From: Arctopsyche grandis
Lineage: Eukaryota; Arthropoda; Insecta; Trichoptera; Hydropsychidae
Reading direction: 5' to 3'
DNA length: 64,000 nt
Assembly (NCBI RefSeq): GCF_051622035.1
Contig: NC_135365.1
Coordinates: 28,210,001-28,274,000, forward strand
Shown: piece after piece, positions 13,996 through 50,382 of the stretch
Numbering within the stretch: the first letter of the stretch is position 1
Layout of the letters: every line of letters begins with the position of its first letter
Made by a program: the position numbers and the translations under genes
Notes under the pieces: model-generated
What the model was told of the DNA's origin: nothing
What the model saw: only the letters and a program-made list of their open reading frames with translations
Database searches by the model: none

Positions 13996-14172
13996 AATTT
14001 GATTGTCACTCGTCTCTCGACACTCCGTGAGAACGGACGTGCCGAAGACGTACTCTCTGTGCGAGCGCTCATAATACAGCGATACGCCATACCGTCAAAA
14101 AACCCACACCTTTTAACATACACAACTAACACCCCCCACAAAACGAACACCAAAAGAACACATGTTGGCACC

Positions 14173-15381
14173 ATGCGAGGATCCAACCTGAAAAAGCGAA
14201 TTAAGAAGACACTGATAACTACAACCGAAGCTCCTCAACCAGGCTGCTCTCAGACCGCTCAGATGGAGACCGAGTGGCAGTTTCCAAAACATACGGCAAA
14301 GAACGTGAAAGATGTTGCTCCTGAATTTAAAATTCAGGAGAAAAACAAATTTGAAGGGCTCTTGGAAGTTTCCGATGTCCCCAGAAGCGGTGGAAGAATC
14401 CCGCCCATCATCATGACAGCTACTGGCACTCACGGCAGCATGATCGAGTCGATCAAGAAGTTTATAAAAGACTTCACAATGACTTACATTGGTCAAAATA
14501 ATGTCAAGATACAATGTAAAAGTCTTGAAGACTTTAAAAAACTTCGGGATGGTTTGACACCAGACCGACAATTCCATACCTTTTCCAGGAAGGAGGAAAA
14601 GGAAATAAAAAGTGTCGTACGTGGCTTGCCGAAATTGCCGGAAGCTGATATTAAAGATGACATCATCAGACAGGGATTCCCTGTAACCAAAGTCATACAG
14701 ATGAAGACGAAGGAGCCTAGGAGCAACGCCACCGAGCTATACTTGATGTTCTTCGAGCCATCGGTATCGGGAAAGAAGATTAAAGAAATCCGGTACATCT
14801 GTTACACAAAGGTCAGTGTCGTTAAATATACTAGTAAATCACAAAATATTACTCAATGTTTCAGATGCCAAGAATATGGACACGCTGCGAAAAACTGCAA
14901 TCGGCAGGCCAAGTGCGTCAAATGTGCCGGCACTCACCTCACCGCACAATGCAATCAAGGAATAGTTACCCCTGCTGTCTGCTCAGGCTGTTCAGGATCT
15001 CACCCCGCTAACTTCAAAGACTGTCCAAAAAGACAGAGCTATCTGAAAATGCTGGAATCGAGGAAGAATCGAGCATCAATTGTCAAAGCCAACCCTTGGA
15101 AACTCCCAGTGGTGCAGCCACAAAATATCCCGGTCGTTAACGATCATAACTTCCCAAAGCTACCGACCATTAAAACTCCTTCACCAAATATCCCAAATAT
15201 CCCTAAAAAACCCCACCAACCAACCAATCCCAACATTCAACCAACAACAGACCTAACTTCCATGGCGTCTATGACGAAGATGTTGAAGATCCTCCAGGAG
15301 ATTCGTGCCAAGGCCAGCGGTTGCACCGACAAACTAGAGCTGGCACTCATGCTTGTCGAATATCTCGATGTCTTTGATTAA
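14173..15381 (+). CDS. Jockey-type LINE ORF1 (Gag-like nucleic acid-binding protein)
   Basis: 402 residues starting at the ATG at 14,173 (context CACCATG). The open frame continues upstream to 13,984 but only through a non-ATG start outside the element. The N-terminal 130 residues are basic and low in complexity. The middle (about 140-210) holds the RRM-like Gag core usual in Jockey elements. Then come three CCHC-type knuckles near residues 228-290: CFRCQEYGHAAKNC, CVKCAGTHLTAQC and CSGCSGSHPANFKDC. A proline/asparagine-rich stretch follows. The protein would coat the element RNA. It overlaps ORF2 by 29 bp in a different frame. No internal stop, so this ORF is still intact. Confidence 0.88.
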   Translation: MRGSNLKKRIKKTLITTTEAPQPGCSQTAQMETEWQFPKHTAKNVKDVAPEFKIQEKNKFEGLLEVSDVPRSGGRIPPIIMTATGTHGSMIESIKKFIKDFTMTYIGQNNVKIQCKSLEDFKKLRDGLTPDRQFHTFSRKEEKEIKSVVRGLPKLPEADIKDDIIRQGFPVTKVIQMKTKEPRSNATELYLMFFEPSVSGKKIKEIRYICYTKVSVVKYTSKSQNITQCFRCQEYGHAAKNCNRQAKCVKCAGTHLTAQCNQGIVTPAVCSGCSGSHPANFKDCPKRQSYLKMLESRKNRASIVKANPWKLPVVQPQNIPVVNDHNFPKLPTIKTPSPNIPNIPKKPHQPTNPNIQPTTDLTSMASMTKMLKILQEIRAKASGCTDKLELALMLVEYLDVFD

Positions 15382-18058
15382 CGGGAGGCGCCTGAACATT
15401 CTAGCTTGGAATGCTCGTGGACTTAAGAATAAGATTGACGAACTAGAGTCGGCGATCGGTGAGTACTGTGTTGACATAGTTTTAATCTCCGAGACCTTCT
15501 TAAAACCTCATATCCGTATTAACCTACCTAACTTTAACTGCTATCGCGAAGACCGAGAACAGCATGGAGGGGGAGTTGCCATTTTTATAAAATCTTCAAT
15601 TAAACATTGTCGCGTAATCACTCCGCCACTAAAAAATTTAGAACTAACCGCCATCGAACTAACAATTAACAACACCCGTCACATAGTAGCATCCGCTTAC
15701 AATCCTCCCCAAAAACGATTATTGGCATCCGATCTTAACAAAATATTTAACATTGGTAGTTCGGTAGTGGTAGCTGGTGACTTTAATGCCAAACATCCGT
15801 TATGGAGTTGCGTAAACACTGACCTACAAGGCACAACTCTTTATAAATACATTCAACTAACAGATATAATCTTACTTCATCCGGATACATACACACACTA
15901 TCCCACAAATAACTCACAACCATCCACACTAGATCTTGTCCTCGTCAAGAACTGCCCAAAAATATCGACACCAAATGCCCTTCAAACCCTGTCGTCTGAT
16001 CATCTCCCGATAATCTTCTCAATCGACGGGAAACCCGAGGAAATCATCAAGCATAGTTGGGATTACGGGAGAGCTAACTGGCGAGAGTTCAAGTCGTACA
16101 TAAATGACCAAACCATTCTTACTTCTACCACACTCACAAACAAAACCGAAATCGACAGCTCCATAATACACCTAACGGAATCAATAACTCGATCCAAACA
16201 CCTTCACATACCTAAGACACAATACATTGAACACAAATTAGAGATAACTGACTTTGTTGCAAATCTAATTAAAAGTAAAAATAAACTCCGTAAAATTTGG
16301 CAAAAATCAAAAAATCCAGCATTGAAAACATTAATTAATAAGCTCACATATCAAATTAAAATTAGAATCAAAGAAATCAAAAATGAAGCTTGGTCTAAAA
16401 AATTAGAAAAATTGAGCTCAGTTGATGGCTCTCTATGGAAATTAGCTAAAGCGATTCGCAGGACAAAAAACTCGATTCCTCCATTAGATGATGCAGGAAT
16501 CTCAGTGACGCGTGATTGCGACAAAGCAGAACTATTATCAAAATCCTTCCAAAAACATCACACACTCACACAACATTACAATCACATACCAACGCATAAT
16601 AAAGTCAACCGGTCCATTAAAATCATCACAAAAACTCCCACTAACAGTACTAAAAATATAAAATTGGTGCATCCGTGTGAAATCCAAAATATAATACGTA
16701 ATTTAAAAAATAAAAAGGCACCTGGGCGAGATTCAATAGATAATATAACAATCAAACAACTTCCATTTAAAGCTTTAGTCTCACTATCTAAAATATTCAA
16801 CGCATGTTTACTCACCGGGTATTTTCCAGAATACTGGAAAACAGCCAACGTAATTCCCATACTTAAGCCCGATAAAAGCTCAAAAAACCCGGCCAATTAT
16901 CGACCCATTAGCTTACTTTGCACGCTTTCAAAAATTCTGGAAAAAATAATCTACACACGTTTACTTAAAGTCGTAAATAAGAAATTAATAAATGAACAAT
17001 TTGGATTTCGCACTGGACATTCCACGACCCAACAGCTAACAAGACTAACTGAACACGTGACGAAGAACTTTAATATGAAGAGAAGTACCGGAATGGTATG
17101 TCTCGACATAGAAAAGTCCTTCGACACGGTTTGGCACGATGGACTCATTCATAAGCTCCTTATTAACAAAATACCAAACTACCTAATTCTCATCATCAAA
17201 TCGTACTTAACTCGTAGAAAGCTAGTGGTTAGCGTAAATAATGAATTATCGTCTCCAAAAATAATCGCAGCTGGCGTTCCGCAGGGGAGCTTGCTTGGCC
17301 CACTCTTGTTCTCCATATATATAAATGACATACCTATTCCAAAAAACTGTCACATAGCCCTATATGCAGATGATACAGCTTGCTTCACAAGTAGCAAAAA
17401 ACCAGACACTATTCTTAAAAATCTTTAATTTGCAATTAAAACAATGACTGAACACTTCAATAAGTGGAAAATTCAAATCAATCAAACCAAAACAGACGCC
17501 ATATTCTTTAGTGTTAGAAAACATAAGCCAAGTTCAGATCTGAAAATCCCCTCTGGAGAAAGTCTGAAATGGCAGTCAGTAATAAAATATTTAGGAGTAA
17601 CGTTTGATAAAAGAATGAGATGGGCACCTCACATTGAGGCAGCGAAATGCAAGGCGATGCGGGGTATATCCTCAATATATCCAATATTTAATCGCCATAG
17701 TTCTTTATCAACGCTAAATAAAATAAAATTATATCGCGCGCTCATATTACCATTATTAACCTATGCTTCACCTGTATGGAATAACGCCTCGAATACTAAC
17801 CTTTCCAAGCTCCAAGTAATATAAAATACATCCCTTAAAATAATTTATAATACACCCATATATACTAACCTGAAAAAACTGCATGCTATATATAATATTC
17901 CGTTTGTTACAGACATTACTAACAAACTAACCAGTAGATTCTATGAAAGAATCACTAATAACCATACTAACACACTTGTGAAGAGTCTCGGTGATTACAA
18001 CAAAATGTCTATACCCTTCAGGTATAAAAACAGATTACCTAAACACAATCTGCTTTAG
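15353..18058 (+). pseudogene. Jockey-type LINE ORF2 (endonuclease and reverse transcriptase) with two stops
   Basis: 901 codons in one frame, with in-frame TAA at 17,426-17,428 and 17,822-17,824. Residues 1-220 are an APE-type endonuclease (LNILAWNARGL start, VVAGDFNAKHPLW, SSDHLPI end). Residues about 440-700 are the reverse transcriptase: YRPISLL, FGFRTGHST, CLDIEKSFDTVWHDGL (motif A), GVPQGSLLGPLLF (motif B) and LYADD (motif C). The first stop falls soon after motif C, so the truncated product would keep both catalytic cores but lose thumb and C-terminus. The rest of the frame is undisturbed, implying recent inactivation or sequencing/assembly differences at two sites. Confidence 0.88.
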
Positions 18059-27449: not shown

Positions 27450-29370
27450 CAGTGGCGGCTCGTCCATACGCACTGCAGTACTGCAGCACCCCCAAGGAAT
27501 TTGAGAAAAATATTAGTAAAATACTTTAGACACCCCAAATGCCGAGCCACTGGACACGATACGATGATATTTGGCTGATATTAATTTCACCGCTAATTGT
27601 TGTTTAAAATACAAAATTGAAAATCAACTAGAATGTAAAATCGAATAAAAAATATAAAAAAGTAGTAAGTACATATGTTAGTATTATAGTATCCTACCAT
27701 AAAAATACTTGGCTAACTATAAACCACACAAACTAGTGACGAGAAAACAAAGAAAAATTCACGTGTTCATATATGTATGCCTTAGGGAAAAATTTCGGCG
27801 AGTGCGAAAAGTATTTCAGTTGAACTTTCAATGCTGTGTATACGGCGATAGGTGGGGATGGGCGATTGGGACAATAGTATTTCAGTCAAATTTGCTACCT
27901 GCGCATACGAGAGTCAGTGGGTATCGCAGTGGCGAGTTGTCCATAGTGGGTTGGCAATAGCCAAATTTTCCCGTGTGGGTACCGCTTTCGAGCAACCTCT
28001 CCGGTCACCAAAAAAAAATACGCCGATAGATGCACAAAAAGTATCTTTCTCATACCGATGATGACATTTTTTTAAAAATTTGTCCAGTTTTGGAGGAGAG
28101 AATAGGAGAATGCGAAACCTCGATTTTTTCAATTTAAAATACGTTTTATCTGGTCGAAGCGCAACTGTCGCATTCACTCAATATATATATATTGTCGCAT
28201 TCACTCAATATATACATACACTCAATACATATATTGAAGAAAGGAACGGTAACAAAATTAAGGTTTCGGGTGTACAGCCCTCTTAAGCTCGCCCGCACAC
28301 CGATACACCCAATAATGATCATACATCGCGGTAATAATATCAGAAAGTGAGGCATCGTTTATGATTTTGTGCAGTACGGTTTTCGATGGAATATGCCGAG
28401 TGGGCGAAGGAGGGGCGCGGGGGCAGCTAGCAGCTTGGTCCGTACTGCACTCCCAACAGTGCTATACACATTTCTTGTTGCGTTCGTGTGCGAACTAAGT
28501 GCGCATGTAGAAATTATTTATAACCAGATGCAATCTAGTAATATCGATGCATTTTCAATTAAAGAAAACTTAAAAAGTTTTACTAATGTCATTATACAAA
28601 TACGAATAGTATTCTATATATCTAGTATTCTATATAATAGAGATTCTTATAGCGAATAGTAACCAAAAATATGTGATGCATATATTATATGCATATATTA
28701 TCGCACATATTATAGAATACAAAAGTATGTGCGATGTTATTATTAAGGATATACTTTTTCTAATGAATGAAAAGCTGTGATATTATTTAATAAAGAAAAT
28801 TTTGAAAAGTACTGAAAGAAAATGCCAATGGAAGATCTACTACTAACCGTTGAATCATATCCAATGATAGATAAAGAAAAACTTCAAACTGAATTAGAAG
28901 TGTTTTATTCAAGAAAAGAAATGCATAGTATTAATGATTTATTAATATTTTTAAAACTTATTTTTGCAATCAATGTATCCAAAGTTCGTGTGGAAATAAC
29001 AAAACTTATTCAAATTCTGCTTACAACTTCAACTACCTCTCAGCCAGAACGGTGTTTTTCATCAATAAATAGAATAAAGACATACATATGTATATAATAA
29101 ATACAATGGTTCAAGAAAGATTGACGGCTTTGTCTATGCTGTCAATTGAAAAAAAAATGATTATGAACAGTAAAAAATTTAACGAAAAGGTGATAGACCT
29201 TTTTTCAAGGAAAAAAGACAGAAGAATCAATTTTTAAATGAAATAAAATACATATAATGTTTAATTGTGATAATTTTGATGTTAATAGTAAAATATAATC
29301 CAAATAAACATTTTTTTTATTTTTAATCAACCACAGCACCCCCAGATATCTTATCCACGAGCCGCCACTG
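27450..29370 (+). mobile_element. hAT transposon, decayed, with 8-bp target duplication
   Basis: Starts CAGTGGCGGCTCG and ends CGAGCCGCCACTG, flanked by perfect GATATATG octamers (27,442-27,449 and 29,371-29,378). Both TIRs are followed inside by AGCACCCCC. It carries a remnant transposase in its right half, and 27,985-28,286 matches the TTAA-ended family seen at 34,834 and 46,035, inserted inside. Confidence 0.85.
28480..29217 (+). pseudogene. hAT transposase C-terminal remnant (ZMYM1-like)
   Basis: An early piece (QSSNIDAFSIKENLKSF near 28,530-28,580) and the main piece from 28,822 (PMIDKEKLQTELEVFYSR..) lead to the hAT dimerisation region: ILLTTSTTSQPERCFSSINR then IKTY. In hAT transposases this block, with the SxERxFS motif, is essential for dimer formation. 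The frame is broken just after IKTY by an ATATGTATATAA-type insertion; beyond it the expected continuation is visible at 29,103-29,217 (QERLTALSMLSIEKKM). The catalytic DDE region and zinc finger are missing. Related to the ZMYM1-type hAT proteins by motif; the exact subfamily is uncertain. Confidence 0.75.
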
Positions 29371-29513
29371 GATATATGTATATAATACAAAAAAAAGTTA
29401 CTTTTTCCATTAAAATAGGAAAATTTAGGACTTTTGAATATTTTGTTGCTTGAACGTTATTTCCGTGGACATTTTGTCACGTGATCATTTTGTCGCGTGA
29501 ACCAATTGTCGCA

Positions 29514-30037
29514 TGCCCCTCAAATCTATACCTTCTCGATATGTCGTTGCTACATGCATACATATCTAACATATATTTAACTTATATAATAAATACAGAC
29601 GATTGACCATATCAACTATTGTTGATGATTTCCATGTGGTGCTCACTGTAAATTGAATTTTATATTTTCATTTGTGTTTATTATTATTTTTTATCTCACT
29701 ATACAACATTATTTTTATATTTTATTCTGTATGTGTGCCTATTTAAATAAATAAAAGAAATAAATTTCATTCATATTTCTTGATTATTCGATTAGATCAT
29801 CAGTCGAATGAGTCTTTTTTCATAAAAATATCCACAATGAACGTTAACATTATGTAATATAATATTTATGTATGTACATATATATTATACACAGAAATTA
29901 AAAAAAAATACACCTACTCGTCGTAATGCACATACATATGTATGTACATACACATATGTACATGTATGATATTTACTGACTAGGAAAGCAATAGCTTTAA
30001 AGAAAATTGTTACGGTAGAAATATGTGCATGAGAATA
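29514..30037. other. Spacer downstream of envelope-like gene 1
   Basis: AT-rich, with ACATATGTATGTAC words at 29,930-29,965. It would hold the 3' UTR of the minus-strand gene ending at 30,038; I cannot choose a poly(A) signal with confidence. Confidence 0.4.
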
Positions 30038-32635
30038 CTATATATTCAAGGAATCGTTGCTGTCAAATACTTTCATTTGATTCGTTTTGCTTAAGCCGGG
30101 GCCCGATGAAAATTGTGCCATAGGTCGATTTCTTTTAAATGAAAGTCTGTTTAAGATCGTTTGCTTCTTTAACACTGTTCTCTGATCACTAGTCTCCACT
30201 TGTCTAAACTTTATGCCATCTTTTGTCTGTTCCATTTCCACGGCTTTTTTCGATTTGTTTGTATTTTCGTAGTGTTTTTTCTCGACACCTGCTTTTGGAG
30301 AATTTGATTTTTCCGGATACAATTGAATAGCTCCCAAATCGTTACTTTCATTCGGAACATAATTGTAGGTTGTAGCTTTACGTTTCTCAAATGGGCCCGA
30401 CTGTCCATTCTCGGCTTCGTTTGATTCGGCCTCCTGGTTAAATGTGCATCTATTGCATTTTAAATAGGAACGGAATTTATAAATTGCTAAAATGATTAAC
30501 AGTATCAGAACAACGCCTACTACTAATGCAGAGCATATGTAAACGGTTAGATTATTCGACTTAATTTGGTTCACTTCGTATGAAGAGTCTTTGAGGTCGA
30601 TCAGATCGGCTTTCAACAATCTGGCTGGTTTCACTGTATCTTTAATTTTGGCAAACTTTTCAGAAGTGCAACAAATGTCATTCCAAATATTCAAGTAGCT
30701 TTTCGGTATCGGTAATGTGCCGTCTCCTGATGTGCTCGAATCAAGCTGGAGAGAGTTTGTGTGAGCTGAGCAATCGTCAGGAATCGTCAATATTCCAGAG
30801 CCCATGACGTTTTCCTCTGTAGGATCTTTACCGTGACAATCCATGGTCATTCTATTGGTTGCTGTCAGAACGTAGATCCAACGCCTGTTTGAAATCTTGT
30901 GCCAAACGTTCAAACTTCCGTAGATTACACGAACATCACACTCTTCAGGTATTGCTGGAGTGTATTCTGTCAACAATTTTGTCTCGCAAGTTGGTAAAAA
31001 GCCCGTAGATGCTATCGTTTCAGATTCGCAAAGATATTTATCTTTGGAAAGTGTTTTGCAATCTTTGATAGAGTCCACGTATGTGTATGAGAGCTTGTCC
31101 GTCGACATGGCCAAGTGGGAGTGCTTCGGATCAGGTTGTATGAACAAGAATAGGTCAGGCTTCGAAGGATCTTCGGCTATCGGCATGGGTAGGTATTTGT
31201 AAAGGATAAATTCGTTCTTCTTCACCAGTGGTATTCTGAGAACGAAAACTATTATACCGTCTTCTACGAAACTTATCACTTTGGAGAGGTCCATGAGAGA
31301 TTGTATGTATTCTAATTTAGGTGGATAGGGCAACTCGCTGTTTTGGCTCACGTCATAGATGTTCTTCGACAACTCGTCGTATATTCGCTGATGGGATATG
31401 ACGGCTGTGTGAAGTATGTCCTTCTTGGCGAAGTTTATAGAGATGAGCACATCTCTGAGAGTGTCCGAAATTAATTGGAGATTGCCTCGAATACTCTCCA
31501 TCCAAGTGTTCATTTTGGTCCTGACATCCGAATTGTCGATCAAGGTTTGAAGTCCTAAAGTTTCTTTGTTAAGATCCAATGTCTCGCCATATTCCTTAAA
31601 TACTAGATTGTTTCTGATGCTGCCAACGCTACTCAACTGTCTTTCGAACTCTTGAATTTTGAATTTGTCTAGTTGAGACACCTTCTCTTCTATAACCTTA
31701 CTTAAGTTTCTCAAGCTTTCTTCAACTATATCTTGATTCCTTCTCATTGTCTTCATATCTTCTTCGACGGTGTTCGTTTTGGGTCTTATTCCGATTACTT
31801 CATTATTAAATACAATTGTCTCCTTTTCGTCCGACCGAAGCTTAGATACAGCACTTTGAAGATTTCTCAAGTCTCGCTCGGACGCACCTGTAGATTTAGA
31901 ACTTGTTCTCTTCACAGATGTCGATAATTCTAAACTAGTGAGCTGTGATTCGCAAGACGACATCAACATATCTAGACTGCCTCTTGGAGCCGAAAAAGAA
32001 CTAGTCTTTTCGTACATTTCAATTTTTAAACTTAACACTTTGGCCTGCTCCAACATTGTATTCATAGACTCCAAGGTAGGCTGCACATATGAAATGTTTA
32101 CATACGTAACAACATCCAGAGGCTGAGTTGATATTTTGACCCGTCCAAGTGGATCAAAGTATAATCCAGATCCGCTTGTTGAGATTTGAGCATATTGTGC
32201 TTCAGCGATGGTCAGAATCATCAAGACAAACCTGAAAATTTAACCAGAAATCACTTATTTATCCAATTTTTATTGTAAAAATGCTTTTAGTGAATATAAT
32301 ATTAATATTCGTATCATTGGATTGATCAACAAATATGTATACTTATGTATATTATACTCTTTGAGTCTTAATAGATATGTAGATAAATATATGAATGCAC
32401 ACTTCTACCAATAATAATAAAATAAGTGGTTAAGCTTTTTTTTTAATCTTTCATTTTTAAGATTTTTTTTTTTTTTTGTAAAAAAGTAAATAAATAATTT
32501 GCATGCTTTAATGTGAGTATTAAACATTATAGAATATTTATGTTTGAATCAAAATATATTGATATTTTGATTCAAACATAAATATTCTATAATATTTAAT
32601 ACTCACATTATAGCATGCAAATTATTTATTATCAT
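30038..32635 (-). CDS. Envelope-like membrane glycoprotein, copy 1 (Baculo_F/errantivirus Env family)
   Basis: Main exon 30,038-32,231 (730 codons, no stop) starts after the acceptor TTTTCAG. The candidate first exon is 32,607-32,635 (ATG, 29 nt, donor GTGAGT), which would complete a signal peptide ending near TIAEAQ. Family marks: GLYFDPLGRVKI near the N-terminus, a central coiled-coil-prone region, then IPLVKKNEFILYKYLPMP, TCETKLL, GSGILTIPDDC and a CC pair before the membrane span (about residues 559-584). The cytoplasmic tail is 144 residues, much longer than in its two neighbours, with YNYV and YENT tyrosine motifs. The furin site and hydrophobic fusion segment of the family are missing: only VKRTSS remains there. 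Probably non-fusogenic. A full frame beside decayed LINEs suggests selection. Copy 1 is furthest downstream of a same-strand triplet. Exon 1 is tentative. Confidence 0.75.
32488..32635. repeat. 148-bp near-perfect palindrome
   Basis: Two arms of about 70 bp meet at 32,559/32,560 with almost no loop. Both contain AATTTGCATGC, ATGTGAGTATTAAA and TAGAATATTTATGTTTGAAT in opposite directions, with few mismatches. The right arm contains the candidate first exon and donor of the gene at 30,038-32,231. Confidence 0.85.
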
Positions 32636-32864
32636 ATATTTCATTATACATAGAATAAACTATTAAAAACTTCACCCTTTGAAACGTATCAATTTAGCTG
32701 ACTGAAGAATAAGCAATTAAAAGAAAGGCTTCATAAGATGTTATGTGGAAAAACTGTATTTATCAATAATTTTTATACAACAGCATCAAAAATGGCTAAA
32801 ATATTATATACATATATAACTTAAATTCAACACATACAAAATTAGTCATTAAATTATGTCTAAA

Positions 32865-34763
32865 CTAGATTCGAACATGTTCCAGCATTTGCATGGCCAA
32901 ATTATTCCTCGGCATTCTCCTGATTTTACTCATCACTATCTTATACATCACAATTAATGATAAAACTAAAATGACTAAAGCTATGCTTATATATGCTATG
33001 ATCGGCACAACACTTTCACGATTTTCTAATTTATCTTTCGGCATTCGATAAGAATTTTTTTTGACAAAGGATATATCACTGTGAGTCATCTCCAACGGCA
33101 CCATTTGACCTCTGAAAGTTTCCAAATTTTCAACCGTACAACAGTCGTCTTTGTAGAGAGGGAACAGAACTTTTGGAGATGTTAAATTCTTCAAATCAAT
33201 ACCATCAGCTCTAAATTCATTGGCACCGGAGTACGCATTGCAATTTTTCGGCAAGTTAATAATTCCCGACCCCGAAATCAATTCATCATAAGAATTAGAC
33301 CCGTCACAATCTATTGAAAGCCTCTTGGGACTGCTCTGAACAAACGACCATCTGTTAGCATCCAGTTTGTGCCAAAAGTCGATATTTCCATACATAACTC
33401 TCAAATCACACTCTTTAGGAAGTGAAAGCACTTGTTTGGTCAGTAGTTTAGTGTCGCACGTGGGTCTCTTTTCAGTGCTATGAATGTTCTTAGGAACACA
33501 CATTCTAGTGCCTTCGTAGAGCTCGCTACAATCATCAAAATCCACATAAGAGTAACTCAACTTATCGTTCGACAATGCCAAATGGGATGATCTGAAAAAT
33601 GACTGAACGAACAAGAAGAAATCTCCGATCCGAACTGGATACGGCACGCAATTATACAGCATGTACTCCATCTTACTCACAAGAGGCACATTCAACACGA
33701 ACAACAATGTCATATTCATAAATTTGCAAGTAACGTCTGACATCCGTAATATGCGTTCTATATTGTTCAAAGAAGGATATAAAGGTAATTCGTCGTTCTC
33801 TCCCGTTGCACTGTCGATCAAAACTTGGTGCAATTCCTTCGAATTCACTACAGCACTGTCGAACACATTGCTCTTGCTCAAGATGACTGCATTTCGAATC
33901 GTCTTCAACTTATTCTGAAACGCGTCAAACTGAACTTTCATGCTCATCAATAGGGATATCATGTTTGATTCCAGCTTCAGATTTTCGATTTCAGTCGCGT
34001 GGTTCTTCAATATGTCTACATGTTTCGTCAAAATGGCCCCATACTCGTCTAGGATGACGCTGGTTCTATTATTTTTAAAATCCAAGTTCTCCAAAGTATT
34101 TTTGTGATTTTTGAGTATAATCCTGTTTTCTTCAGAGAACGATATCTTTTGAGCTAGCATTTTGTTAAATTCTTGAAAAGCCTTCTGGAAAATATCCAAT
34201 TTTTCTTTGATATCTTCCAGAGACGAGGTTTGATCGATTATACTGGAATTAAAAACTGAAAACTTTTCACTTACATTGTGATAGTACATATCTTGTTCAG
34301 CAGACAATGCATTTATGGCTCTCTCATACTTTTCATAGCCTGGAAATACCATGTTTGTGAGCCAAATTAAACCATCAAAAAATGATTGAGCAACTTGAGT
34401 CACCAGCATAAAACTGCCACCAACCCATCGTTTAAATCTGTTCGTGGACTCTGAGGACAATAACTCTTTGATTTGAATGGAATTTTCCTTCATGATACTT
34501 CCTAATGATGTTATCATCTCCATGCAAGGATTATCCGAGTCTATAAGCTTGATAATGTTGCACATGACTTCGACTTGGACAAGAGCAGTCATGTGGATCG
34601 GGAACTCATCACGTATGAAATTTAAATCAACGAACGTCACGACCTCTAAGCGATCGCTCGACATTTTAATCTTGCCGACTGGATCGAAATATATTCCAGG
34701 TCCATCCTCAGACGCGGTTTCGACGAAATCATGTCCGAATGCAGGCGCTATAGTCACTAGCAT
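32865..34763 (-). CDS. Envelope-like membrane glycoprotein, copy 2, with furin-like site
   Basis: 632 codons, uninterrupted. The acceptor TTTTTGCAG lies one base before the ATG, so the exon begins A-ATG, the same phase as in copies 1 and 3. The true start is therefore probably in an upstream exon not located; the ATG could also serve itself. GIYFDPVGKIKM marks the family N-terminus. Residues 109-112 are RFKR, a furin-type site, followed by a hydrophobic run to about residue 140, the position of the fusion peptide in baculovirus F proteins. Then coiled-coil regions, LNVPLVSKMEYMLYNCVP, paired cysteines (TCDTKLL, LPKECDLRV, GSGIINLPKNC, DDCC), a membrane span at about 585-607 and a 22-residue basic tail. 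Of the three paralogues it looks most like a working class I fusion protein; whether it functions is unknown. 633 bp separate it from copy 1. Confidence 0.8.
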   Translation of the reverse strand: MLVTIAPAFGHDFVETASEDGPGIYFDPVGKIKMSSDRLEVVTFVDLNFIRDEFPIHMTALVQVEVMCNIIKLIDSDNPCMEMITSLGSIMKENSIQIKELLSSESTNRFKRWVGGSFMLVTQVAQSFFDGLIWLTNMVFPGYEKYERAINALSAEQDMYYHNVSEKFSVFNSSIIDQTSSLEDIKEKLDIFQKAFQEFNKMLAQKISFSEENRIILKNHKNTLENLDFKNNRTSVILDEYGAILTKHVDILKNHATEIENLKLESNMISLLMSMKVQFDAFQNKLKTIRNAVILSKSNVFDSAVVNSKELHQVLIDSATGENDELPLYPSLNNIERILRMSDVTCKFMNMTLLFVLNVPLVSKMEYMLYNCVPYPVRIGDFFLFVQSFFRSSHLALSNDKLSYSYVDFDDCSELYEGTRMCVPKNIHSTEKRPTCDTKLLTKQVLSLPKECDLRVMYGNIDFWHKLDANRWSFVQSSPKRLSIDCDGSNSYDELISGSGIINLPKNCNAYSGANEFRADGIDLKNLTSPKVLFPLYKDDCCTVENLETFRGQMVPLEMTHSDISFVKKNSYRMPKDKLENRESVVPIIAYISIALVILVLSLIVMYKIVMSKIRRMPRNNLAMQMLEHVRI

Positions 34764-34833
34764 TCTGCAAAAATCAAAAAACGAATTGCGTTACTCTCCA
34801 TCACCTTAACGAGGACAGTGACACTTTGGACCC

Positions 34834-35463
<630 letters not shown>

Positions 35464-35869
35464 AGATTCGTGCTCTTCATGAAAAAATTCAAGTACTATT
35501 CTTGTATCAATGTGATGAAAATAAAAAAATCACTACATTTTATAAACCGGAAGTGGGATTTTTTCCTCTTAGAAATGTCAAAAATGTTCTGTCCCACACC
35601 CCTGAACGTTTTTGTCAACGCGAAAGAAGCACACGCCGAAAAAGCGTAAACAATATCATATTTTTCAATTGTAAATAATATCACTCACTATAATTCTAAA
35701 TTAATTAATATTGTAACAGATAGAATTTATCCAAAAAAGCTTCTATCAACTTTGTAAATTACTTTTTAGGGGAGGGGAAGAAGGGGTCAACTCAAGATTT
35801 GCTTCTAATTTTGTCATTTTTACATGATAAGCTTCAACGCATCCATTTGGACATGCTTAGCACGGTTCG

Positions 35870-36165
35870 GTGATTATTCCGCACAAAACTATCTCGTGCA
35901 CGTCACTAAAATATCGGTCATGGAACATCAGACATCCGAAAATTCCATCCATCAAGATTTACCCACGTGAAATATCATACTAACGAGAACTTGAGTGCCA
36001 GATAATACGTATTCGTGATTTTCGTGACATAGATTGTCGTTTGCGCAATCGCAATGTGCGAAATAATCCATTTACCGCTTTATTGCGGATTATTACGCAC
36101 ATTGCGATCGCCCAAAAGACATTTTTTGCCATGAAAATCGCGAATACGGAATATTTATTATGTTA
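35870..36165. mobile_element. Foldback/MITE with long hairpin
   Basis: 35,999-36,070 and 36,088-36,160 are inverted copies (CGCAATGTGCGAAATAATCC against GGATTATTACGCACATTGCG, extending outward through ATTTTCGTG and CATGAAAAT). The left portion CGGTTCGGTGATTATT recurs at 60,853 and 62,560. Confidence 0.65.
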
Positions 36166-36177
36166 CTTATATTGTAG

Positions 36178-36650
36178 GTTTAAGAAACGACAGTGTTATC
36201 TAATATAATGTTATAATGAAGTGTGTTCGTTTTGTCAGCTCTCGTTAATAAAATTTGGAAGAATCCATGAAATTTTTATAAAAATCACATTAAAAATTCA
36301 AGTAGCAAATATTTTTTTCAATTATCAAAGCAAACTTTCTAATGCAATCTGTATCCGTCATTTAGAAATGCGCACAACTTTTTTGTAATGTACATAAACT
36401 TTTTTTAATGTACAAATTTTTTTTAAATGCACATTTGTTTATAAAATGGACGTTTAAATTGTTCCGATTCCATAATTGATTTGTAGCAACGATATTTATC
36501 TTTTGGGTTCAGGAAACGACAGTGTTATCTAATCTGATGTTCAAACAAACTTTGTTCGTTGTTAAACTTTTTTTTTGTCAGCTCTCATAAATAAAATTTG
36601 GAAGAACCCATGATTTTTTTATAAAAATCACATTAAAAATTCTAATTAAT
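36178..36650. repeat. Tandemly duplicated AT-rich repeat
   Basis: GAAACGACAGTGTTATCTAAT at 36,185 recurs at 36,512, each followed by AAATTTGGAAGAA and ATAAAAATCACATTAAAAAT, a period of about 327 bp. The middle (36,296-36,455) matches 58,790-58,945 in a TTC27 intron. Confidence 0.65.
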
Positions 36651-36942
36651 AATAAATAAATGAATTTATTTTTAAATATATCATATACATACATATACAT
36701 AAAGAGGCTATTAAAGTTTTGTCCAGCTATTATTGCAGTTTTTAAATTAAAATTTCAGACCTACTGACCAGAATGTACAGACTATTTATTTTAATTAATG
36801 ACTGTTCATCATAGTTATTGACCATTCGTTATATGTACGAACCATTTATTACAATAACTGAACAAAAGCTTTTAAAATCACTGAACAATATTTACTGACT
36901 ACTTAATGCTACGACTATTCGATGTAATAAAAATGAAAGCTT

Positions 36943-39900
36943 TCACTTCCTTCGAGCAACTATAAGCTTTTCATTTGTTAAATTCTCCGGATCTACTTGA
37001 TCCACGTTTGTTGTGCCTCTGTTCCTGAACCTCACTGCTGCTTTGTACACGACGAAGACCAGCAACATAGCCAGTATGGTCAAAAACACGTACATGACGA
37101 TAGCGAGATGTCTGTTCTGACCCACGTTAGGCAGCTCGTACGCATATTCCTCTAAAGATTCGACATCTGACACAAATATGCTGTTCGGTTTCAGCTTCTC
37201 CTTCATGTCCTCCATTCTCGATGAGGAGCAGCATTCATTGTCCTTCAGATTAAAGACCGTCGCAGGCGGTTTAATACTACTAGGCGAGTACCCAGAACGA
37301 AGCAGATTGCTCTTGGAAGTTTGCACCGTGCAATTCAATGGAAGATTCAAGATACCCGATCCGACTATATCGTTTTCTATTGAATTCTGTCCCTTGCAAT
37401 TGATGGTCACTGTCGTTTTCTCGCTCTGGGCAAAGATCCATCGATTGTTGCGCGTCTGAAGCCACAGATCTACGTCGCCGTACAAAAGCTTCACCTGACA
37501 ATCTACAGGTAGAGTGGAGACAAATCCAGTCAACAATTTAACTTCACAAGTTGGTTTCAAGGCCACTGAATAGGACCGAGGCACTTGGCACAGACGCTCT
37601 TCCTTGGAGAATTTCAAACACTTGTCCAAATTCAGATAGACGTAGTTGGCTGAATCCGTCGACACGGCCAAATGTTTTGTCGAAGATGGTTCTATGTACA
37701 CGTACATGTCTGGTCTCAAACGATCCTGGACAATTGGAAACGGCAACGGTTGGTATACTAAGTACCTTCGCTTGTTGACTAGAGGTATTATTAGCTCGTT
37801 AATCATACTTTTTTCTTCACCATACGTCACCACTTCGGAAGAATCGATTATCAACTGCATGTTTGTTAGCTGGAGGTGGTACAGCAATTCTTCATTGCTT
37901 CCAAGAAAATCTATGTTTTTAGACAACTCATCGAAGATTTGTTCATGGCTTACTATTACTGTATTTAGAGTGTTGCCTCGGCTCAAGTGGATCGTTTGAA
38001 GAATATCGTCGAGTTTCTTCTTAAACGCGCTAAATTTGTTCTCCGTAGTCATGAGGAGTAGTGTCAACTTGTCTTGGATCTTCAAATTGTCCATTATGCC
38101 CCTGTGCGCGATCAACGTCTCATTATTTTTGCTCAGGATGTTCCCGTACTCTTGTAGCTTTTCTTGAGCTTCCTTCGACCAATTATCCAAGCTAATCAGT
38201 TTCTCGGCGTGATCTTTCAGCTGATTCCTATCAGCCAATGAAAAAATTTGTTCCTGTTCCAACAAGTACGACACATTGGCCAACTTCTGGTATAATTCTT
38301 TCTGTCCCTCGTCTATCTGGTCACTTTTGTGGTATAATCCTTCCAACGAGGACTGTATCAATAGTATTTTATTATCTGTTTCATATTGGTCATCTTGCTG
38401 TTTTGCGGCTAGAGCATTTAGAGAACTATTTATTTTCTCAATGGATCTGCTCGATCGCTTCACTTCTAGAGATTGTGAGATGCTGTTTTGTCGAGATTTG
38501 TTGTCTTCCAAGCTACTCTTCAAGTTCCGGATGGTGGTTGCGCACAGGTTTTCGCTGTCAAAAGCCGTGACGATTTTGCAAAAATTTTCCACCACGTCTA
38601 AATTTGTCAACATATCTTCATTTTGCTCTTGGATGAAAGTCAAGTGGGTAACAATTTTCAGATGCAATTTTTGGCTTAAAAGTCTAACTTTTCCAACGGG
38701 ATCGAAGTATATCCCAGCGCCACTATCGATATATTCCACATAGTTCTGCCCTAACGCGATTCCAAAAGAAGCCGCCAATCTGAAATACAACCATTTCAGT
38801 CAATAAATAACCTTATAAATCGAACAAAATACATTATTGAATTTTCATTCATTTACATATGTAATTTAATTATTGATTGAAACGGTTTTCACAGAATTGA
38901 CGACTACTCAGATCATAAAACGATTCCTCTTTTAAATATAACTTGATAACTTTTGAATAGTGTCAGAGGGCATGCATAATATAAATGCTAGTTTAAAGTT
39001 GTAAATGTAGAAAAACAGATATACATACATACATATATGGTTCTATTGAAGAAATACGTATCTAAACGTCAGAATCCAAGCAGCAATTGTCGAAATTTTA
39101 ATTTTTAATATTAAATTAAATAATTTTTTTTTAAATAATTTTTCTATATAATCTATATGGTGGCACGACAAATCGGCGCAAGCCAACTTATCACCGACCT
39201 TTCGGTGCAGACAACTCAGCGCAACGACTGTTCAGCGCGTGAACTATTCAGCGCAACGATAATTCAGCGCAAAATCATTTTTTTCAATAATCTTTAAATG
39301 CGTTTTCATAATTACTATATTGAAATTGTCGGCCATATCTACATACATGATAATTTCATAAATGCGAATAAATTTATTTGATACTCTTTTTGCCTTGAAA
39401 TATTACGCAAGAAGGGTTTCTAAACTAAGACCGCAAAAATTTATTTTTAAACAGGGTTTCTAAACCAGGCAGCAATTTTTTTTTTCAAATAGTTTTTTGG
39501 TTTCCAAACTTTTACGTAAGCAGGGTTTCTAAACTAAGCTTCGCAAATCGTCATTATTAACTTTGCTTTTGATGAAATGGGAGAATATTTTGTTTTCGAT
39601 TTTTCTACCAAAAATTATGTTTTCAAATCCTACGTATTCATGGTTTCTCAACTGAGTTCCGCAAAAACTATTTCTTAAAAAGAGTAAAATCTTACGTATG
39701 AACGGATTCTAAACCAATGTTCGCAAGCCCGTCTTCATGGGTGCTGCTATTCATATCTAAAATGTACGCGTATACGTATGTAAGTATGTATTGACGTATT
39801 TATCGACCATTGATTTAAATTATCGTGCATTTCAATGGGTGACCATATCGTGCATTTCAACCAATTGAAAAAAGATGCATTTGCTGTTCGTACTACTTAA

Positions 39901-40876
39901 TCATTGGGTCTTCAAAAAATTTTGCGCTGAATTGTCGTTGCGCTGAATGGTCCATGCGCAGAATTGTCTTTGCGCCGAGTTGTCTGCGCCGAAAGGTCGG
40001 CGCTAAGTTGGCGTGCGCTGAGATGTCGGTTCGCCAATTTATATACATATAAATTTATCTATTAAAAATAAAATTTAAACTAAAAATAATTTAAATCCCA
40101 TTATTCTAGTTTGTGAATTTCGAAATAAAAGAAAACTACCGATAGATGTCGCTTTTAAAAACAAAAAAAGTTACCTAACTCAGCGATACCCAAAACACCT
40201 TAACCTAAAAGTCATATTTGTTCAACAGAAAAAAAGTTTTGCAATAACTCCTCCCCCCCAACCCAAACTGCAAACTGTACATTTTGGATTTTAAAAAGTA
40301 ATTAAATCAATCGGAAATTTTTACACATATCGCTTCTTGAAGTTTCGCCAATGATATATTATTCGTTCTTTCCTTATTTGTGTATGTAGGTTGTTTTAAA
40401 TGTATTTTTTCCCTCCTTATTTGGTGCCAATCTTATCAACTCCCGATAAACTCCGTCCCCCAATATTGTGAATTGGTCTTCTACATACATAAATCTCCGA
40501 CATTCAGACTACCAAAATTTTATTTAAAAAATTGATGAAATATTATCTTTGCATGTTCTATGATGGTTAGCCCGTCATACGAGAGATGGTATTCAAAAAG
40601 TTGATTTAAAAAAAAATCACATTCAATTTGCATCAATTGTATTTCTTTGTATCAATTAGCATCAATAATATTAGTAAAAAAATAACGCATAAAAGGATTA
40701 AAAAAAAAGAAAATTCCGTGACGCATAATAGGTCGAATTCGGCAACGCAGATTAAAATCAAGTTCATAAATTAATTAAACCAAAAACTGCATTTGTATAT
40801 AAATTGTTCTAAAGAACTTGGTTCACGAATCGGGTTAAAATTCAAACTGTACTCACAATAAGGCAAACGCTTTCAT
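36943..40876 (-). CDS. Envelope-like membrane glycoprotein, copy 3, two exons
   Basis: Exon 1 at 40,857-40,876 (20 nt) is ATG plus five codons plus TT, ending at donor GTGAGT. Exon 2 at 36,943-38,779 follows acceptor TATTTCAG. Joined, they give a textbook signal peptide (MKAFALLLAASFGIALG). About 618 residues in all. GIYFDPVGKVRL is the family N-terminal mark. The furin and fusion-peptide region is deleted, with VKRSSRS left at the spot as in copy 1. Coiled-coil-prone middle, then IPLVNKRRYLVYQPLPFP, TCEVKLL, GSGILNLPLNC, ECC, a membrane span near residues 562-583 of exon 2 and a short basic tail. The 2.1-kb intron contains a foldback element. The start context is CAAGATGA. Likely a retained host gene of viral-envelope origin; function unknown. 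Confidence 0.8.
39163..40040. mobile_element. Foldback element in intron of envelope-like copy 3
   Basis: Left arm 39,163-39,290 and right arm 39,923-40,040 are inverted and made of repeated phrases: CAACGACTGTTCAGCGC, GCAACGATAATTCAGCGC on the left, TTGCGCTGAATTGTCGTTGC on the right. The 630-bp spacer carries GGGTTTCTAAACTAAG phrases at several places. Confidence 0.7.
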
Positions 40877-41279
40877 CTTGAAGGTTGGAAGTTCTTATTT
40901 CTTCTTTTTGTCCGATGTAATACATAAGTACAAACTATAAGTTTGCACAACGCAAACGTATACACATGTGCACAAGCGGCACTAGTCAATTGCGAATCGC
41001 CAACTGAGCTTATCTTTTGCGAACATTATATTTACCGACTTATCAGGGGCTCCCAACCCGTGTCCGCGGGCATCATGGCGCTTGCTGACTGATTTTTGTG
41101 CGCTCGCCACTATTCCAGTGACAGAATTTTTTTTAATTTTATTTAAACGACTTCCTAAAATACTCATTTAATAATCATGTAATTCCAACTCATTTGTCAG
41201 CATAATTCGACATATTTATGTTATCTACACTGCACTGGATACTCACTTTAAAATGTTTTTTCTATTTCCTTCTTTCTCT
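40877..41279. other. 5' flank of envelope-like copy 3
   Basis: This would contain the promoter and 5' UTR of the minus-strand gene starting at 40,876. No clear TATA box. 41,040-41,110 (CCCGTGTCCGCGGGCATCAT) looks like a piece of a hAT-type end. Confidence 0.35.
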
Positions 41280-47316: not shown

Positions 47317-47320
47317 TACA

Positions 47321-47606
47321 TGTGGGTGGAATTCCTGAATAGATGACGCTATTCAGGACCACGATGGGATGTGGCGGTGGAATTGAAGATCAAACACGTG
47401 CGTTTTCAGTCATGTTGTTAAAACGACACCACGCGGTGGTTTAACGACCAACCGCCCCCAGTGGAAGGTTAACTTCTACTAACTGTAAAATAGCGGTCCT
47501 TTCGCGCCCTCTGCCGCTTTTCCATCCCCTCTCTACAATCGGTCGTAACATACCCTTTCTCAGCAATAGCCCATACATTAGCCTTTCGTTCAATCCCAAC
47601 ACTACA
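47321..47606 (-). repeat. 3' LTR of the gypsy-like element
   Basis: 286 bp, TGTAGTGTTGGG..CCACCCACA read on minus. The purine-rich AGGAAAGGCCGAG just inside (47,607 side) could be the polypurine tract. Confidence 0.9.
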
Positions 47607-48302
47607 ACTCGGCCTTTCCTGACCACAAACCTGCCCTCAGGTTTCTCTCACCTGCCGGGTCATTCCTCAATCATACTACACATAATTTTCAGACATACTT
47701 CTGAATAATCCCAGACATACTTCACAGTAGTCTTCAACATACTCCACAATAATCTCAAACATACTCCACAGTAATCTTAAACATATTTCAGTATCATATC
47801 AAATTTTTCACGTTTCAATACAATTCAATCTTCAAAAAAAGTTACACACAGATTATCACAATTAAAGTTACACATAAATCATCACAATTGCAATTTAAAA
47901 TCATTACAAGAAATACATAGCATTAAAATCCACACCTTCACATCGGAAACAGATCACATTTTAAAACCATTACAAGAATTACATAGCATTAAAATCAACA
48001 CCTTTACATCGGAAACAAATCACATTTTAAAACATCACTAGAATTACATTTCAATACAATTATCTCATATTCTTCTAGGCATGTAACCAAATTAAAACAT
48101 TATTCAACATACCAAACACTCGCCAAAACATGAAAACACTAGAATAATCAATAAAACATTAACAATATTTCAAATCATAACTACTAACAAAATAAAACAA
48201 TAATCAAATATGATGTAAGGCTTAACTAAAACCCCTCCGGGTACTCCACTTATTCTCTAATTCACTGACACACACTTCACTTCAATCGGCACAACCTAAA
48301 CA

Positions 48303-50042
48303 CTATCCGATGCCAGTCGCGATTCCACGCGGCTGTCCGATGATGTTGTCCGCGATGGACCTCCCGTCGCCCCACGGCTTTCCATATGGTATCTTGCCAC
48401 ATATGAAGTTGACCAATATCGTTCCTGGTTCACCGATATATCCAAAAACTCCCTTCTTAATCCATGGTCTTATTTTATTTTCCATTAAAGTAACATCAAT
48501 CTGACTACGACCGAGCTTGAAAGTGAATACATTGTCCTTTGGTGTTGAAATTTTGACTGGGTCTCTTATTCCTTCTGGTGATTTATCCATATCTTTTTCT
48601 TCATGTTTCCCATTTTCTTCGTCTTCATCTTTAGGATTCTTCGAATGACCATGAGACCCTTTACTGAATTGACCATCGGGCGGTTCATCTTTATTTGAAA
48701 ACGCCATGTCTCCGTTGTCCCAAAGCCTTCCAATATGCAAACCATCACCGTCCATACTTCCATCACCCATGTCCAGGCCTCCATTACCCGTGTCCTCACT
48801 TCGATCACTCATGTCTACACCGTCCTCTTCATTATTGGAAACGTCTATTCCACATGGTTTGCGATGCTTACTTTCATCATTCTTCATCCTAATTGAATCT
48901 GTGGTTGATGATCGATTTTCTGTGTTCGGTCGCACTGAAGAATAGTCCAGATGAGCTCGAGACGGCGACGCTGGAGGCTCTAAGGGGGTCCTCACCATCT
49001 GACCATGTGACATGTTTGATGTTCCATCAGCCTCGCTTGAACAGGAATCGTTGGGTTCTGCATGAGCAGACATCTCTTGTGAAGCCCGTTCTTCTTTTTC
49101 CCTCCGCAGACTCTGTTCCAACTTGACCTCGATCGGAACTCGTGGTTTTGACGTTTTATCGCGTTCCACTTTGATTTTTTCTTGCTCTCCATCCTTCAAG
49201 TCCGAATCAGCCCTCCTTACTCCTTCCGCAGCTTTTCTACGAATGGCACCGGAGCTGTTACATTGGTCTCTTACCACAGGAACACTTTCACTAGTGATGA
49301 TGCCGCATCGATGTACGAAGTTCTCGCCGGCGAGGTTGTCTTCACTGCCTGTGTCGATCAGTGCCGGCGTCCTCGCCTTGGGTCTCCAGCTGCCTCCAGT
49401 TGAGGGTGCGGGCACTGCTTTGGCCGTGGCTACGGTTGCGGCTGCTTCTTCTGCCTTTACCTTTTCCACCAGCCCTTCGAAGGCGCTCAACTTGTCCCTG
49501 AACTCCTTCAAATTGCGGGCACCATGCAGCATCCCCTTCATAGAAGACCTGCCAGGGATCCCGTCGATGACGTATTCCATGAGGTCGCGATCCTCGATCG
49601 AACCCACGCTCGCGATCTCCCGCATCCGGTAAAAGTACTCGTTGACCGATTCCTCTGACGTTTTCTGCGACTTGGACAGCCTCCTATGGACTGACGCCCC
49701 ACTCACCATCCGAGCGAACTCCTCCAGTAATGCGCTTTTGAGTTTCTCCCACGAATAGACCCCATCTTGTATGCGCAGGAACCTCTCGGCCACCCCCTTG
49801 ACCAGGCGTTTCCCAAACAGCAGCTTTTCCATGCTGCCCCAACCTGCCGAGTGTGCGACTTCTTCGATCTGCGCCACCCACTTTTCTACCGGATAGTCGT
49901 CGTTTCCGGTGAAAATGGGGACGGCGCCCTCCATGTCTTGGAAAGTCAGCTTGGCTCGGCTGGCGACTGGCTCTTCTATCGCCCTCTCCCGAACCCCTCT
50001 CGACGTCCTACGACCAGATGTCGGCCTCCTCCTCCGATACAT
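48303..50042 (-). CDS. Gag-protease fused to an RBM25-like PWI segment
   Basis: 579 residues in one frame; the start ATG is 31 bp after the primer-site block. Residues 30-200 look like a gypsy-type Gag (WEKLKSALLEEFARMVSG; VNEYFYRMREIASVGS; LKEFRDKLSAFEGLVEKV). No CCHC knuckle. Residues 227-247 hold a retropepsin-like active site (ALIDTGSEDNL, D-T-G at 230-232), but the protease seems to stop soon after. Residues about 260-495 are a Lys/Glu-rich, then acidic Asp/Gly-rich stretch not typical of retroelements. Residues 497-550 match a PWI domain as in the splicing factor RBM25: LMENKIRPWI then YIGEPGTILVNFICGK. The domain is cut short after its middle and followed by a 29-residue unrelated tail. 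The uninterrupted frame suggests capture from spliced RNA. Confidence 0.8.
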   Translation of the reverse strand: MYRRRRPTSGRRTSRGVRERAIEEPVASRAKLTFQDMEGAVPIFTGNDDYPVEKWVAQIEEVAHSAGWGSMEKLLFGKRLVKGVAERFLRIQDGVYSWEKLKSALLEEFARMVSGASVHRRLSKSQKTSEESVNEYFYRMREIASVGSIEDRDLMEYVIDGIPGRSSMKGMLHGARNLKEFRDKLSAFEGLVEKVKAEEAAATVATAKAVPAPSTGGSWRPKARTPALIDTGSEDNLAGENFVHRCGIITSESVPVVRDQCNSSGAIRRKAAEGVRRADSDLKDGEQEKIKVERDKTSKPRVPIEVKLEQSLRREKEERASQEMSAHAEPNDSCSSEADGTSNMSHGQMVRTPLEPPASPSRAHLDYSSVRPNTENRSSTTDSIRMKNDESKHRKPCGIDVSNNEEDGVDMSDRSEDTGNGGLDMGDGSMDGDGLHIGRLWDNGDMAFSNKDEPPDGQFSKGSHGHSKNPKDEDEENGKHEEKDMDKSPEGIRDPVKISTPKDNVFTFKLGRSQIDVTLMENKIRPWIKKGVFGYIGEPGTILVNFICGKIPYGKPWGDGRSIADNIIGQPRGIATGIG

Positions 50043-50072
50043 TGTAGCACGTGGTCTTCAAACTGCCGCCTA

Positions 50073-50090
50073 ATCCCGGACGAGCCTCCA
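50073..50090 (-). other. Primer-binding site, tRNA-Pro-like
   Basis: Minus strand TGGAGGCTCGTCCGGGAT begins two bases after the 5' LTR. It differs at one base from the proline-tRNA primer site used by gammaretroviruses such as MLV (established knowledge). This marks the orientation and the 5' end of the element. Confidence 0.8.
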
Positions 50091-50092
50091 AT

Positions 50093-50378
50093 TGTGGGTG
50101 GAATTCCTGAATAGATGACGCTATTCAGGACCACGATGGGATGTGGCGGTGGAATTGAAGATCAAACACGTGCGTTTTCAGTCATGTTGTTAAAAAGACA
50201 CCACGCGGTGGTTTAACGACCAACCGCCCCCAGTGGAAGGTTAACTTCTACTAACTGTAAAATAGCGGTCCTTTCGCGCCCTCTGCCGCTTTTCCATCCC
50301 CTCTCTACAATCGGTCGTAACATACCCTTTCTCAGCAATAGCCCATACATTAGCCTTTCGTTCAATCCCAACACTACA
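50093..50378 (-). repeat. 5' LTR of the gypsy-like element
   Basis: 286 bp, same ends as the 3' LTR and almost identical to it. Promoter and poly(A) signals are expected here; I could not fix a TATA box. Confidence 0.9.
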
Positions 50379-50382
50379 TACA

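Follow-up and report, generated by a model that had tools for sequence, protein, structure and literature searches.

The 64,000-nucleotide stretch of Arctopsyche grandis DNA analysed here (the window) carries, at 47321-50378 on its minus strand, a non-autonomous LTR element of 3,058 bp whose long frame runs from Gag into part of the splicing factor RBM25. We are highly confident of its origin and type, namely an LTR element, probably Gypsy-like, that carries RBM25 sequence derived from host mRNA. The original prediction, made from the sequence alone, described one frame joining Gag, a protease DTG motif and a PWI segment captured from RBM25. That frame is present as a 579-aa ORF, in which the DTG motif is genuine but the protease is reduced to a stub, and the capture is borne out by alignment to an intron-bearing RBM25 gene in the same genome.

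Structure of the element and source of its RBM25 segment

The element begins with TG and ends with CA, and its paired LTRs and target site duplication (Table 1) identify it as an LTR retrotransposon. The putative primer-binding site is one that we take to be tRNA-Pro-like. The gag part alone matched Pfam Retrotrans_gag (PF03732) with an E value of 1e-5 and 26.1 bits against a cut-off of 24.1, and the score obtained with the whole ORF fell just below the curated Pfam cut-off. No RT or integrase was found by Pfam in the fusion, the sole long ORF of the element, indicating a non-autonomous derivative. The 3' part is AT-rich, and no ORF of at least 80 aa, hence no env of a retrovirus or errantivirus, lies between the stop of the fusion and the 3' LTR. 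Rfam and tRNA scans of the window were empty. The term Gypsy-like, in preference to BEL or Copia, is a provisional assignment based on the gag-protease-RT layout of an autonomous relative (locus L065).

Table 1. Features of the element in the window (position 1 is the first nucleotide of the window)
Feature	Position	Strand	Basis and remarks
5' LTR, 286 bp	50093..50378	-	repeat pairing and genome-wide LTR search; 1 mismatch to the 3' LTR, at 47424
3' LTR, 286 bp	47321..47606	-	repeat pairing and genome-wide LTR search
Target site duplication TACA, 4 bp	47317..47320 and 50379..50382		flanks; TGTA when read on the minus strand
Putative primer-binding site TGGAGGCTCGTCCGGGAT	50073..50090	-	sequence only; after the 5' LTR
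Fused ORF of 579 aa (Gag, then protease stub, RBM25 module and a tail read out of frame)	48303..50042	-	ORF list and shuffles
Gag part	49375..50042	-	Pfam and DNA alignment to the autonomous relative
Two protease remnants, ALIDTGSEDN.. and SESVPVV..	49265..49377	-	alignment; joined at ACTAG, 49291-49295
Captured RBM25 module	48393..49244	-	spliced host exons a to i, with internal in-frame deletions and an end inside the PWI domain
Truncated RBM25 PWI domain, residues about 496-551	48390..48557	-	structure-sequence match to 3v53
Stretch from the autonomous relative's 3' end (pol C-terminus, out of frame to stop 48303, then 3' UTR)	47607..48393	-	91.6% to C11:1710051-1711010
Two tandem 66-bp units, 91% alike, in the 3' UTR	47891..48022	-	repeat search

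Third-codon GC marks residues 250-554 of the ORF as a foreign block: the value is 0.70 before, 0.37 within and 0.80 after it, and the log-likelihood gain was 35.2 against a maximum of 12.1 among 200 permutations. No shuffle left the frame open among 2,000 dinucleotide shuffles each of the captured segment and of the whole ORF.

In the ORF, residues 497-552 gave a match to 3v53, the PWI structure of human RBM25 (E 4.9e-10). With the last 99 aa alone the match improves to E 1.6e-11, and no second PDB sequence was matched by this query at E up to 10. The match is thus significant, and it stops at residue 75 of the 119-residue chain, in keeping with the predicted truncation. The window ORF did not match Pfam PWI (PF01480) at E up to 10, and a complete PWI domain was accordingly not found; we attribute the missing match to truncation and divergence of the domain.

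The genome searched was the assembly of the window itself (475.7 Mb, 189 contigs, written below as C numbers). Its best place for the human RBM25 PWI query is C3:10888666-10888824 (E 2.6e-16), within a host RBM25 gene at C3:10885801-10889300 that comprises at least nine exons (a-i) with AG/GT borders throughout and an open spliced frame; the exon bearing the RPWI motif matches human RBM25 3v53 with an E value of 1.5e-21. Residues 267-554 of the window ORF align to the spliced host frame in a single blastp match (E 2.4e-52, 40.8% identity), so that about 290 residues are of RBM25 origin. The charged stretches are included, and the Lys/Glu-rich and acidic segments that the original prediction had suspected of being host-derived align to RBM25 as well. 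Five host exon junctions (a|b, c|d, d|e, g|h and h|i) are crossed gap-free in the window element with the introns absent, and a sixth, b|c, is crossed in a copy of a second family, B1. The weakest crossing is a|b, where two overlapping matches meet, and 16/24 bases are identical across c|d. The window copy has lost, in frame throughout, the final part of exon a, portions of b and c, and a stretch covering the end of e and most of f; the single blastp match contains eight indel runs relative to the host, every one in frame. Junctions crossed without introns indicate that the captured block derives from spliced mRNA. The alignments show that RBM25, rather than another PWI protein, is the source, and the module seems to start near the end of the RBM25 charged region and to stop inside the PWI domain.

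Two other accounts of the similarity were rejected. Chance is ruled out by the 3v53 matches, the shuffles and the third-codon GC block, and SRRM1 is ruled out as the source of the PWI segment, an SRRM1-like host gene having been found separately in the genome.

Copies, autonomous relatives and Gag backgrounds

A genome search with the captured block found 31 near-full copies plus fragments among the best 40 of 237 candidates scored. We analysed 30 fetched loci of this family, A (L003-L032, L003 being the window copy), with the overlapping loci L033-L062 left out of counts. The fused ORF is intact, at 576-605 aa, in 28 of the 30, and the further fusion copies that the original prediction had proposed to look for are present; the exceptions are L013 (346 aa) and L024 (530 aa, with an internal start after a stop). 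LTR pairs could be aligned in 27 copies, in two of them with a 1-nt gap; the paired LTRs are identical in 16, and no pair falls below 98.6%; L012 (one LTR found) and L021 and L032 (badly aligned) are left out of this count. The identical pairs indicate that family A moved recently. The 4-bp target site duplications match in 24/29 copies, although many of them are TATA and chance matches are possible. At C2:14295890-14299318 (L030, L062), two A gags lie close together on the same strand and the target site duplication of L030 is unmatched; a tandem or recombined pair is possible.

The closest autonomous relative of family A lies at C11:1706219-1711298 (5.1 kb); it contains a frame of 1,264 aa, and its LTRs are 97% identical to those of the window element. 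The window element has the composition of a TR-GAG: its LTRs, shared with an autonomous relative, enclose one Gag ORF. Leader and gag are 92% identical in DNA to the relative from C11:1706461 onwards. A deletion at about 49375-49377, where the two matches overlap by 3 nt, removes the CCHC nucleocapsid stretch of the relative, and a C-x2-C-x4-H-x4-C motif occurs in 0/30 A ORFs, once in the relative L065 and twice in the B1 copy. A second deletion lies inside the protease, at a 5-nt microhomology (ACTAG), after which the RBM25 block follows. The block ends within the PWI domain where the identity to the 3' end of the relative starts, and the tail PYGKPWGDGR..GIATGIG is not RBM25 because the pol C-terminus of the relative is read there in another frame. 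At this 3' join GCTGG is common to host RBM25 and the autonomous relative, and the relic L068 reads NVLAGKLFGD. The joins fit template switching, without proving it. A search for the RT of the relative gave 100% matches within long frames at two loci and fragments elsewhere, compared with 32 places for A.

The PWI piece was found at no fewer than 150 places in the genome, comprising 32 A places, 1 relic at C1:15989937 and 117 others, where the class of places not individually read was assigned by score alone. Searching with the human RBM25 PWI added at least 38 non-host places, the relics L067 and L068 included, to give at least 188 non-host places in all. Frames at the listed PWI places reach at least 576 aa in 28/32 A places and at least 500 aa in 68/117 others. 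Among the matches listed, a non-A gag lies within 2.5 kb of 46/117 other PWI places, so that a Gag fusion is shown for only some of them, and a PWI place lies within 2.5 kb of 66/114 non-A gag places.

Three Gag backgrounds were read with the module: A, B1 and B2. In the B1 copy (L064, C12) the module is preceded by a Gag that bears two CCHC knuckles and shares only about 31% identity with A Gag. In the B2 copy (L072-L073, C9) the N-terminal part of Gag is different and an extra RBM25 fragment, REMLAQAGPIDSDSSGAGETPD, lies inside gag; the copy also has the knuckles of B1, PWI and repeats of module pieces. The gag listing contains many full-length B1-like gags and many knuckle-only places, mostly in frames of about 480-635 aa. 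B1-like gag also occurs inside gag-pol frames, at 88-89% identity in frames of 1,162-1,325 aa and at 93% in one 2,151-aa frame, which indicates that B1, too, has autonomous relatives. The 5' region of the B1 copy is LTR-like, with 85.5% identity along 200 bp to DNA that lies behind the gag-pol frame at C9:11877534; no second copy of this region was found in the downstream stretch fetched. From the module into the 3' UTR, the A and B1 copies are 77.6% identical over 608 nt.

Some further observations concern exchange and duplication. In 3' pieces, the A tail is 80-84% identical in DNA to the region that follows the C9 gag-pol frame on its 3' side (L075), although the RTs of the two families share only 46% identity, hinting at a 3'-end exchange between families. 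Near-identical family B places are spaced along C9:3090121-3285541 (168-aa PWI frames) and C41:1786151-2222384 (521-aa frames), suggesting duplication of element-bearing DNA. An insert at 973-1261 in the module of relic L063 has inverted ends and, on inspection of the translations, looks MITE-like. No relatives of the element were found in the viral_contigs, genome_contigs and plasmids collections.

Selection on the module and alternative explanations

Across all pairs of the 28 A ORFs, pN/pS is 0.49 for gag and 0.59 for the module; single-pair module values among A range from 0.34 to 0.84, and 5/6 intervals include 1. Between the host and A1 modules, two computations gave a dN/dS of 0.46 (0.33-0.65) and 0.45 (0.27-0.77). 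The values are 0.74 (0.43-1.27) for A1 versus B1, 0.90 for A3 versus B1 and 0.77 (0.30-1.93) for the PWI part; against relic L063 they are 1.03 for A1 and 2.23 for A3, the last with a very wide interval (0.78-11.62). The A and B1 modules read contain no stops, and the dS between them is about 0.25. In a neutral simulation, the share of runs that left 277 host codons stop-free fell from 11.9% at 60 substitutions to 4.4% at 90, 2.1% at 120 and 0.7% at 150, each count being an assumed value for the element branch. Amino-acid constraint on the module thus appears weak, and frame-keeping is, as judged from these comparisons, better supported than sequence constraint. The conserved frame in turn argues that the fusion is translated. 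We put the usefulness of the RBM25 tail as a protein at close to an even chance, slightly on the lower side.

A serious alternative, to which we give somewhat under an even chance, is that the RBM25 block has no protein function and is carried along by a non-autonomous element that succeeds by its right length and intact LTRs and 3' end, the open frame mostly reflecting youth. The A copies are indeed very young, relics with broken modules exist, the PWI domain is truncated, and the interval of the A1-B1 dN/dS includes 1. Youth does not readily account for the B1 comparison, however: the A-B1 split long precedes the present A copies, as the dS between the modules shows when set against the LTR pairs, yet both modules are open. 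The exclusively in-frame indel runs, the pN/pS values across the A ORFs and the low stop-free share in the simulation at 120 substitutions also count against this alternative, although the share at 60 substitutions is less telling.

An improbable alternative is an RNA-level role of the block in place of a protein one, whether in packaging, stability or nuclear export or by purine tracts that resemble exonic enhancers. The DNA that A and B1 share covers the block and the 3' UTR next to it, as this reading would have it; such a role nevertheless would not require that the reading frame be maintained in both A and B1.

That different elements captured RBM25 independently, twice or more often, is very improbable. 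The low identity of A and B1 Gag and the additional RBM25 fragment in B2 gag could be taken in favour of this, but the modules share derived features, and the 3' tail and 3' UTR are shared too. Two derived deletions relative to the host, HRRRPLVPLDYGD -> R---LWD and QVKSLIDKIPT -> PV-----KIST, are common to A and B1, and A1 and B1 agree against the host in 27/137 compared columns, which makes one capture the most likely origin of both. Relics L067 and L068 are 75-78% and relic L063 is 85-89% identical to the window element, and this greater divergence places the capture before the present A copies arose.

That the segment is an ordinary retroelement domain of autonomous relatives, a reading with nothing found in its favour, deserves almost no credence: no RBM25-module match was found in the 2.6 of 5.1 kb read of the autonomous A relative (L065, L074), and among the matches listed a PWI place lies near 0/14 gag-pol frames above 1,100 aa (0/12 frames within 8 kb on the same strand; 0/2 autonomous A loci within 10 kb), so that the prediction stands on this point also.

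Proposed mechanism, known systems and other features of the window

The most economical view would be a TR-GAG-like element, mobilised in trans, whose Gag bears a host-derived tail. On this view, spliced RBM25 mRNA of the host entered a Gypsy-like element; template switching in the course of reverse transcription is the most likely route, with DNA-level capture from an existing RBM25 retrocopy as a possible alternative. The RBM25 stretch sits in place of most of the protease, RT, RNase H and integrase, leaving only a Gag-RBM25 fusion, while the retained LTRs, leader and 3' end would presumably allow copying and integration in trans by the enzymes of autonomous relatives. Recombination may later have passed the module to, or kept it in, other Gag backgrounds. 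If translated, the fusion could use its RBM25 part for RNA binding or as a charged C-terminal tail; the aid to packaging suggested in the original prediction would be a further candidate role, though set against weak amino-acid constraint.

RBM25 is described as having three domains that possibly bind nucleic acids, and one study reports for human RBM25 that binding of a G-quadruplex RNA needs the RE region and not PWI (PMC10639069). Nucleic-acid binding by the module is therefore plausible and RNA binding possible, yet PWI alone does not imply RNA binding. Single-sequence structure models had mean pLDDT values of 42.2 and 44.5, the model of the truncated PWI being of very low confidence (pLDDT 42). 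In family A the RBM25 tail may stand in for the deleted CCHC nucleocapsid, an attractive idea, although a helper Gag could equally supply the CCHC function. The broader proposal, that the module is a transferable host-derived Gag domain conferring a replicative advantage (nucleic-acid binding that replaces CCHC in A, or interference with host splicing of element RNA) and recombined among at least three Gag lineages to more than 100 copies, we regard as tenable though unlikely.

Bs1 of maize reportedly has a hybrid ORF composed of several transduced cellular genes. It is presented as an LTR element with cellular mRNA sequence captured into its ORF (PMC5408686). The window element shares this arrangement and differs from Bs1 in its animal host, in the presence of one RBM25 module at more than 100 places and in three Gag backgrounds, and in having autonomous relatives in the genome. 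Plant TR-GAG elements are characterised by two LTRs, a single Gag ORF, no pol and a related autonomous element as presumed enzyme donor (PMC8704663). All of these features recur here, whereas the fusion of Gag to a captured host gene and, in family A, the loss of the CCHC nucleocapsid set the present element apart. LTR-mediated retroposition in metazoans is said to have been treated by Tan et al. in 2016. Such retroposition is described with intron-free host sequence between LTRs, microsimilarity at the joins and a template-switch model (PMC5408686). The first two are found here as well and the joins fit the third, but here the chimera gave rise to a multi-copy family of mobile elements in which the Gag fusion is intact. 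Oncogene-capturing retroviruses also hold a host gene inside an LTR element and are mobilised by helpers. Retroviruses with captured oncogenes are named in another source (PMC6431247). Helper mobilisation is presumed for our element too, which differs in being a genomic element of a sequenced animal, in carrying a splicing-factor gene and in that no env was found.

The prediction had called host mRNA capture by LTR elements rare in animals outside oncogenic retroviruses. Its rarity agrees with the word "occasional" in one review, but oncogenic retroviruses are not the sole animal cases (PMC5408686, PMC6431247). A literature search on retrotransposon, gag and RBM25, and a broader one, showed among the papers listed none on such an element, judging by titles and listings. 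Such capture has precedents; the copy number, the intact fusion and the spread over Gag types make this element an unusual variant. Among animals it is a clear example of spliced host mRNA carried in an LTR element and then amplified and shared among element families. With the parental gene, autonomous relatives, relics and young copies in one genome, the steps of capture, frame-keeping and module exchange are open to direct reading. Should the fusion be functional, a portion of a splicing regulator would be a recurrent Gag domain, with a bearing on how Gag gains RNA-binding parts and on encounters with host RNA processing.

Elsewhere in the window, 30038-38790 on the minus strand holds three tandem envelope-like ORFs of 728, 632 and 615 aa. 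The first two match Pfam Baculo_F (1.1e-35 and 4.3e-25); the third has no Pfam match and is 29% identical to the second (2e-85). The sole long direct repeat found in 28000-41000 (36164-36299 and 36493-36642, 78%) lies between these ORFs and does not flank them, and the ORFs are possibly a cluster of host-retained env genes. The window also contains LINE-like sequence at 13984-17428 on the plus strand, with an ORF at 15353-17428 that includes an endonuclease and an RT, and a LINE-like, RT-bearing ORF at 2880-4091 on the minus strand.
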